Source: an uncultured Nitrospiraceae bacterium (GTDB taxonomy: Bacteria; Nitrospirota; Thermodesulfovibrionia; Thermodesulfovibrionales; Thermodesulfovibrionaceae). Taken from it: 64,000 nt of DNA. The stretch is taken from contig CAKZQH010000021.1 of NCBI GenBank assembly GCA_937139565.1, forward strand, positions 1-64,000, given 5' to 3'. The position numbers were made by a program, and so were the translations under genes. Below the pieces are notes generated by a model. That model had not been told where the DNA came from and did not search any database. It saw only the letters and a list, made by a program, of their open reading frames with translations. Position 1 is the stretch's first letter. Every line of letters starts with the position of its first letter. Below are positions 1 to 51,065 of this stretch, piece after piece.

Positions 1-111
1 GACGTGGTTATTGAGCCTGATGAACGAAACAATATAAAAAGGGAAGTATTGATTCCTAAAGGTCACTCTAATGAACCAAGCCAGAGAAGCAGAACGAAGA
101 GAAATGAGTGA
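1..111 (+). CDS. C-terminal fragment of an unidentified CDS (truncated by window edge)
   Basis: Open frame 1 from base 1 (DVVIEPDERNNIKREVLIPKGHSNEPSQRSRTKRNE*), followed by a plus-strand terminator hairpin. Confidence 0.3.
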   Translation, partial: DVVIEPDERNNIKREVLIPKGHSNEPSQRSRTKRNE

Positions 112-49592: not shown

Positions 49593-50017
49593 TGACCTAT
49601 GTAGATGCCTATTTACAAAGTAGAGTTTTAGGTGCTGACCCAGTTGAGCTTATATTAATGCTTTATGAGAGAGCAATAGTTTCTCTAAACATTGCAAAGG
49701 AATCTATCCTTGGTGGAGTTGATGATCCTGAACTTTTAAAAAGAAAAGCAACTGAATTAGGAAGAGCAACTAATATAATCTACTATCTTCATGACACCCT
49801 TGACAGAGAAAGAGGTGGCCAAATTGCAGATAATCTCGCCACCATTTACTCAATATTAACAGAGGAGCTGGTTAGAGCAAATCTCTTTAATGATGTGGAG
49901 ATAATTTCAAAGTGTATATCTATACTCAATAACCTTAAAGCATCTTGGGAAGACGTAAAAAAAGAAATGAGAGAAAAGCAAAATGCAGAGCGAAAATCCA
50001 TTGCAGCAGCAGTCTGA
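49592..50017 (+). CDS. fliS: Flagellar export chaperone FliS
   Basis: YVDAYLQSRVLGADPVELILMLYERAI. Confidence 0.95.
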   Translation: MTYVDAYLQSRVLGADPVELILMLYERAIVSLNIAKESILGGVDDPELLKRKATELGRATNIIYYLHDTLDRERGGQIADNLATIYSILTEELVRANLFNDVEIISKCISILNNLKASWEDVKKEMREKQNAERKSIAAAV

Positions 50018-50249
50018 AATAAGAAGTATTTTGATACAAGCAGAATTTGCCTTAAAGGAAAATCGCTATGAAGAGGCTGTTGCAATGCTTTCAAATATTA
50101 ACATGGAGGAAATGGCAAGACTTTCGATGGATGAATTGCAGGCAATCGGTAAACTTCTTAACTACTTAAAAGAAATCGCACAGCAAAAAAAGGATGAATT
50201 AATAGAACAACTTAAAACCGTTCAGGCGTGTAAAAAGTACATTGGCTAA
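49983..50249 (+). CDS. Small helical protein, putative FliT-like chaperone
   Basis: 88-aa helical ORF overlapping fliS by 35 nt, in the typical fliT position. Confidence 0.6.
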   Translation: MQSENPLQQQSEIRSILIQAEFALKENRYEEAVAMLSNINMEEMARLSMDELQAIGKLLNYLKEIAQQKKDELIEQLKTVQACKKYIG

Positions 50250-50253
50250 AATA

Positions 50254-50445
50254 TTAAGCCCTGTCACAGGAGCGTCTTGATATCAATTCCCATGTTTCCT
50301 CGTCTATCTCATCCACATACTCAGATACTTTAAATTCTGCTCCGCACTCACTACAGCAGAGCAATACCCTGCTTCAGTAGAAAAATATGAAAACTGTGTT
50401 TTTACAGTATTTACATTTTACTCCCTTAAGGACTCTTTTTCTCAA
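50254..50445 (-). CDS. Candidate dual-CXXC small selenoprotein (in-frame UGA at 50374-50376)
   Basis: TTG start after GGAGGAGG; (M)RKRVLKGVKCKYCKNTVFIFFY[U]SRVLLCCSECGAEFKVSEYVDEIDEETWELISRRSCDRA*; SECIS-like hairpin at 50337-50364; the ORF track missed it because of the UGA. Confidence 0.75.
50337..50364 (-). promoter_or_regulatory. Candidate bacterial SECIS element
   Basis: UUGCUCUGC-UGUAGUGAGU-GCGGAGCAG: 9-bp stem (two G-U), 10-nt loop starting 18 nt after the UGA with GU at loop positions 2-3. Confidence 0.7.
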
Positions 50446-50459
50446 AGGCCTCCTCCATT

Positions 50460-51065
50460 TTAATTCATTCTTCTTGCTAACTCAATCCATGGATAGTGTT
50501 GAAGAATCTTTACAAGGCTATTTAATCTACCTGAATTTATAAACTCTATTTTTTCATCACTGTCAAAAACTCCGTAGAATGAAGCAGTTTCAAAAAGGGC
50601 TCTGCCAAGATAATTATCCCTTGGTTTTAATACATCATCAGGTCTTGTGTAGAATGGGTCTTCTCCAACTTCACAGGATTTTCCAAACACATTAAACTGC
50701 CTGCAAGCAAGAGGCCTCATTGGATAAATCGAACAGACACCATCAATAAGAAAAGGACAAGTCTCACCCTTTTTATGTTTTAGAAGTGAACTCTTTATCT
50801 GTGAACGGAAAGGCTCTTTAATCTTTTCGATTACATACCAGTAAATTCCAACAATTTCAATCGGATAAACCGGAATGTCTCTGTGAGTTTTACAGCAGTT
50901 ACTGCAACCTCTTTTACAGGCAAGGCTCTTACCTTGCTTTTCAAGTTTTTCAATATCCTTTTTTACACCTTCATCCATAATTGCATAGGCATTTAAGAGT
51001 AGCACTAACCAAGTATGATTTTTTTCATCCTTAGGGAAAGAGAGTCTAAACTTACTTCTTTTCAA
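50460..51065 (-). CDS. YkgJ family cysteine cluster protein
   Basis: CKRGCSNCCKTHRDIPVYPIEI, CPFLIDGVCSIYPMRPLACRQFN. Confidence 0.9.
   Translation of the reverse strand: MKRSKFRLSFPKDEKNHTWLVLLLNAYAIMDEGVKKDIEKLEKQGKSLACKRGCSNCCKTHRDIPVYPIEIVGIYWYVIEKIKEPFRSQIKSSLLKHKKGETCPFLIDGVCSIYPMRPLACRQFNVFGKSCEVGEDPFYTRPDDVLKPRDNYLGRALFETASFYGVFDSDEKIEFINSGRLNSLVKILQHYPWIELARRMN

Follow-up and report, generated by a model that had tools for sequence, protein, structure and literature searches.

Described bacterial SECIS elements and the dual CXXC family

The published model of bacterial SECIS elements has an apical loop of 3-9 nt, and it covers most, not all, bacterial SECIS (PMC13188914). The small selenoprotein family considered here and its mechanism of selenocysteine (Sec) insertion have already been described. 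The family is listed as 'dual CXXC motif small protein (hypothetical protein OS_HP3)' in a 2026 review (PMC13188914), and a second name in the literature is 'hypothetical protein DW' (PMC13188914, PMC12013277). We analysed a member of this family in a 64,000-nt stretch of DNA (the window) and compared it with 15 species of Thermodesulfovibrio (congeners) and with more distant relatives. The comparison indicated that a hairpin just downstream of an in-frame UGA is very probably a functional bacterial SECIS, serving Sec insertion into a small zinc-ribbon-like selenoprotein. Its register appeared to differ from that of the wider family.

The selenoprotein gene and its reading frame

The 63-codon frame on the minus strand (50445-50254) contained a single in-frame UGA, at 50376-50374. 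With this codon read as Sec, the translation was MRKRVLKGVKCKYCKNTVFIFFY-U-SRVLLCCSECGAEFKVSEYVDEIDEETWELISRRSCDRA. The features of the gene were as follows.

50254..50445, minus strand: predicted selenoprotein gene, 63 residues, Sec at position 24; TTG start 50445-50443, TAA stop 50256-50254
50449..50456, minus strand: GGAGGAGG, likely ribosome binding site, read from the sequence; some congeners are without it
50404..50415, minus strand: first CxxC, with Cys11 and Cys14 as presumed zinc ligands; unchanged in all 71 aligned homologues
50374..50376, minus strand: in-frame UGA, predicted selenocysteine codon (residue 24); all homologues recovered by the motif have either UGA or a Cys codon here
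50344..50355, minus strand: second CxxC (Cys31, Cys34), whose codons lie partly in the loop and 3' arm of the putative SECIS; invariant in 71 homologues
50266..50268, minus strand: Cys60 of the C-terminal R-x-C-[DN]-R motif; conserved in at least 90%

The TTG start aligned with ATG, GTG or TTG in the 15 congeners. Against NCBIfam NF041197 (NF041197.2), 'dual CXXC motif small (seleno)protein', the whole frame scored 50.4 bits and the 40 residues from the UGA onward alone scored 46.8 bits, the curated cut-off being 40. Family membership is established, and by its sequence the gene is an ordinary member of this catalogued family. It resembled NF041197 / OS_HP3 / DW in the placement of Sec between two CxxC motifs, in length and in the C-terminal RxC[DN]R motif. 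The divergence at the protein level was only normal, whereas the SECIS register differs in Thermodesulfovibrio.

Among the 15 Sec-form congeners, the mean pairwise differences at codon positions 1, 2 and 3 after the UGA were 0.09, 0.017 and 0.49, respectively. The third positions varied and the second hardly did, implying that the frame beyond the UGA is translated.

Structure of the predicted hairpin

Positions given with a plus sign, and codon numbers from here on, are counted from the UGA. The minimum-energy structure was the hairpin UGCUCUGC/GCGGAGCA, an 8-bp stem (+11..18/+29..36) of -13.0 kcal/mol closing a 10-nt loop, UGUAGUGAGU. Its probability was 0.93 in the free RNA and 0.99 with the ribosome footprint masked. 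The elements of the local structure were as follows.

50356..50363, minus strand: 5' arm of the putative SECIS, UGCUCUGC, +11..+18; fold -13.0 kcal/mol, 98.3% of cells paired in 15 species
50346..50355, minus strand: apical loop of the putative SECIS, UGUAGUGAGU, +19..+28, with G20-U21 at 50354-50353; G20 and U21 invariant in 15 species
50338..50345, minus strand: 3' arm of the putative SECIS, GCGGAGCA, +29..+36; fold and 15-species pairing
50355..50373, minus strand: competing 7-bp stem, +1..7 with +13..19, a minor conformer; -9.3 kcal/mol, probability about 0.01-0.05

An earlier sequence-only reading had placed a SECIS-like hairpin here, and its sequence, coordinates and spacing were right, as was the loop start at +19 with G20-U21. 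The 9-bp stem that it gave is indeed 9 bp as written (+10..18/+29..37), but the minimum-energy form has 8 bp. The same reading had held that the known bacterial rules apply. This was borne out for the loop G and the UGA spacing, but not for loop size. At least one G is expected in the first two loop bases, and here these are U19 and G20, invariant in 15 species; the distance from the UGA to the apical loop was 18 nt, within 16-37 nt. The stem and its energy also lay within the usual bounds (4-16 bp, -7.5 kcal/mol or lower). The predicted loop exceeded the 3-9 nt range by one base, although non-canonical pairs within it could shorten it. Thus, the hairpin resembled the bacterial model in its location in the coding region right after the UGA, stem length, loop G, spacing and energy, and differed from it in the 10-nt loop.

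In the E. coli fdhF SECIS the apical-loop G-U also lies at +20/+21, in agreement with the sequence-only reading; the fdhF sequence used for this comparison was confirmed in 5404 of 5426 E. coli genomes. However, the bulged U of fdhF at +14 is missing here, where this base is paired to A33, the loop is much larger, and the two elements have no sequence similarity. The Fdh-like and SelD elements of the window's own genome were likewise G-rich loop hairpins following an in-frame UGA. They differed in having 3-nt loops, GGG at +24..26 in the Fdh-like gene and AGG at +18..20 in SelD.

The competing stem AGCAGGG/CUCUGCU had also been anticipated, and it does exist. It was not favoured (-9.3 versus -13.0 kcal/mol, and about 5% in the fold of a longer transcript), was complete in only 3 of the 15 congeners, and is barred while a ribosome covers the UGA. 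Its energy, the ribosome masking and its poor conservation ruled it out as the main structure.

Taken alone, the window sequence was only mildly unusual. Dinucleotide shuffles gave the hairpin a z of -1.6 (14/200), and synonymous recoding gave p = 0.027. The single-sequence evidence was thus weak, while the comparative evidence was strong. An Rfam search of the window found no match, which was expected because, to our knowledge, Rfam has no general bacterial SECIS model.

Conservation of the hairpin within Thermodesulfovibrio

The hairpin was conserved across the 15 congeners, in which 118 of 120 pairing cells were kept (98.3%). The mean synonymous pairwise difference was 0.07 in codons 5-13 and 0.44 elsewhere (Mann-Whitney p = 1.2e-4). 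Codons 5-8 and 10-12 had no synonymous variation at all in the 15 species, and codon 9, with its third base in the loop, varied freely. The Leu codon in the hairpin was CTC in 15/15, a codon that accounts for 9% of Leu codons in the long open frames of the window. The stem Cys codons 6 and 10 were TGC (14/14 and 15/15) and the loop Cys codon 7 was TGT (15/15); the first CxxC, in contrast to the TGC of the SECIS stem, was encoded mostly by TGT. The inner pair 16/31 varied yet stayed paired, as U-G, C-G or U-A, and both changes alter an amino acid. Within the genus, no pair of the helix had changes on both sides. The pattern is therefore one of constraint, not of classic covariation, and the case rests on the synonymous freezing together with the Cys control.

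This control came from the sole Cys-encoding congener (L021), in which the hairpin was lost (-4.6 kcal/mol, z +0.24, versus -12 to -20 in Sec forms). One congener (L042) was predicted to fold otherwise. At the order level, two Cys forms were likewise low, three (L012, L016, L019) folded into a different hairpin, and one (L070) retained the hairpin. The constraint on the hairpin at the RNA level is established, and at the level of sequence the comparative test of its codons is decisive. The Cys form that retains a SECIS-like hairpin (L070 in G065, -13.9) comes from a genome without a selA or selB match over the cut-off, and looks like a recent change from Sec to Cys.

Selenocysteine machinery and co-occurrence

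The selA, selB, selC and selD genes that a bacterial SECIS requires were all present in the window's genome. The selA match scored 607.8 bits and selB 374.9 bits, the tRNA-Sec (selC) has a UCA anticodon, and selD carries its own in-frame UGA. An Fdh-like gene in this genome also has an in-frame TGA and a hairpin of its own. UGA is used as an ordinary stop as well, since the neighbouring clpX ends in it.

The family was present in 131 of 151 related genomes, nearly all with exactly one TGA, and about 125 of the 131 retained the UGA. In the 90 loci read out, besides a diverged paralogue (L051), the Sec position always held a Cys codon or UGA. Since the search motif admitted no third option, a locus with any other residue would have dropped out, but no locus was missing. 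The conservation of UGA or Cys at this position is established. The diverged paralogue (L051:1130-1276, G010) is a 49-aa CxxC-Sec-CxxC frame that contains an in-frame TGA, and a hairpin GGUAAG-GUGC-CUUACC was predicted in it; it fell below the family cut-off and occurred only in G010 among 121 relatives.

In a hand tally of 299 genomes of the phylum, selA was found in 101 of 105 TGA-form genomes, 2 of 5 Cys-form genomes and 27 of 189 genomes lacking the family. The assemblies of the four TGA-form genomes without a selA match are fragmented. Of 42 genomes examined for selB, the four with no match over the cut-off were all Cys-form, and 18/18 Sec-form genomes had selB.

These observations are consistent with the following mechanism. 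With the ribosome stalled at the UGA (50376-50374), the 8-bp hairpin, which begins 10 nt further on, would remain folded. Its apical part, containing G20-U21, would be bound by SelB carrying Sec-tRNA-Sec(UCA), and SelB would deliver selenocysteine. The product would be a 63-aa protein of zinc-ribbon-like fold, with Sec24 on a turn between the two CxxC motifs.

A probable register shift between the genus and wider relatives

The sequence-only reading had named a favoured competing stem, and the lack of a conserved apical stem-loop among homologues, as findings that would speak against it. Neither was observed, and its interpretation was supported. The homologues do conserve such a stem-loop, but the exact register was confined to the genus, and the loop of wider relatives lies at +24. 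For 68 order-level Sec-form homologues, the register was +17..23/+27..33 with a three- or five-base top, which was GGA at +24..26 in 47 of them. In this register 92% of cells paired. The pair 23/27 covaried, with 12 double-sided changes in a 41-sequence subset, and the synonymous freeze fell on codons 6-8 and 10-11. The order-level register has 6 inner pairs, and all 22 class- and phylum-level homologues examined kept 5 or 6 of them; of the 8 Thermodesulfovibrio pairs they kept just 2 to 5. Since the order-, class- and phylum-level homologues share the other register, the Thermodesulfovibrio hairpin appears to be the derived one.

We consider it probable that the Thermodesulfovibrio SECIS was re-registered from the ancestral +17..23/+27..33 (loop GGA or GUC at +24) to the longer +11..18/+29..36 with a 10-nt loop bearing G20-U21, and that the protein motif stayed unchanged. 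The helix would have slid toward the UGA, recruiting codons 4-5 and 12-13, and U21 in place of C21 would have provided the G-U of the new loop. The loops in the window's genome lie at +18 (SelD, AGG), +19/20 (the dual CXXC gene) and +24 (Fdh-like, GGG), so the same SelB would also read 3-nt loops at +18 and +24. We know of no earlier account of a SECIS that changed register within an orthologous gene, and on the present sequences this proposed change is well supported.

Alternative explanations of the UGA and the hairpin

The UGA might be a plain stop, or the gene decayed, with an untranslated downstream frame and an incidental hairpin. The mildly unusual single-sequence fold (z -1.6) and the ordinary UGA stop of clpX would agree with this. 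However, a stop would hardly be kept at an identical position in about 125 homologues from a single phylum, be followed by strong protein-level constraint, coincide with selA in TGA-form genomes, or be accompanied by a codon freeze restricted to the hairpin, and we regard this explanation as very improbable. There is equally little to be expected from a reading of the UGA as cysteine or tryptophan by another tRNA, in which the hairpin would have no SECIS role. A tRNA-Cys with a tRNA-Sec-like shape does lie on the same contig at 68818, but with its GCA anticodon it does not read UGA, and decoding by this tRNA was rejected on that ground. Moreover, the genome has a tRNA-Sec(UCA), and in Cys-form homologues the codon is TGT or TGC and the hairpin may be lost.

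Another explanation accepts the SECIS but takes the ancestral register (+18..22/+28..32, loop GUGAG at +23) as the part still functional, with the 8-bp hairpin as a helper stem. Five ancestral pairs can still form, and with AGU as codon 8 the loop would start at G23-U24, very near the position that is conserved. Against this, the ancestral structure reached -3.7 kcal/mol versus -13.0 (probability <0.01), G23 is not conserved (Ile, Thr or Asn codons in 5/15), and the frozen codons 5, 12 and 13 fit the shifted register only. We consider this arrangement unlikely.

Protein motifs and predicted fold

In 71 aligned homologues, C11, C14, Sec24, C31, C34 and R58 were invariant and C60 was conserved in at least 90%. 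The Cys60 motif is Asn-Ser-Asp-Arg in three Cys-form homologues and is absent from a few Sec-form ones. AlphaFold2 modelled a small β-rich domain (mean pLDDT 82.8, pTM 0.62). Neither sequence nor fold comparison with the PDB brought up a convincing relative, and the matches to zinc fingers or zinc ribbons were weak; the closest folds included the zinc ribbons of Elf1 and RNA polymerase III subunits, at a non-significant E of 0.4 or worse. We infer that the two CxxC motifs may hold zinc in a zinc-ribbon-like fold, and that Sec24, on an exposed turn, may be a redox or metal-binding centre. Cys60 could perhaps act as a resolving thiol for Sec24. The protein probably has a redox or metal-handling role.

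Neighbourhood of the gene

In the window, a PF03692 gene (50460-51065) lies upstream of the selenoprotein gene, but its presence at this position is not conserved in the genus. At four other loci (L014, L024, L029, L054), proteins encoded beside the selenoprotein gene, in varying orientation, were noted by eye to have cysteine clusters of a CxxCxxCC-like type; the PF03692 assignment was confirmed for the cysteine-cluster protein of the window only. In G014 (L055) the divergent upstream neighbour is seleno_YedE (TIGR04112, 492.8 bits), a putative selenium transporter, and in two further congeners (L043 and L056) the same place is taken by relatives that were grouped with it by BLAST only. Even among congeners the upstream genes lack conservation, so no operon function was inferred from neighbours and this approach was set aside.

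On the other side, about half of the genus has the flagellar fliD-fliS block as its convergent neighbour. The small frame following fliS (49983-50249, plus strand) is kept in seven congeners and has no Pfam match; its position suggests a FliT-like chaperone.

Beyond the window end, a tRNA-Cys(GCA) (G000:C21:68818-68907, L010) has an 8-bp acceptor stem and a long variable arm, and scores 61 bits against the tRNA-Sec family. These features match the selC* type of tRNA-Cys, which has been described from Nitrospirae among other groups (PMC7609411).

Implications for the family

The annotation of this selenoprotein is corrected here; standard gene callers would overlook the gene or cut it short. 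Most sampled related Nitrospirota keep the selenoprotein family. The natural series of ancestral register, shifted register, and Cys forms with and without the hairpin may serve to probe what SelB requires. It poses the question of whether SelB depends on loop size, on loop position, or only on an exposed G-G or G-U.
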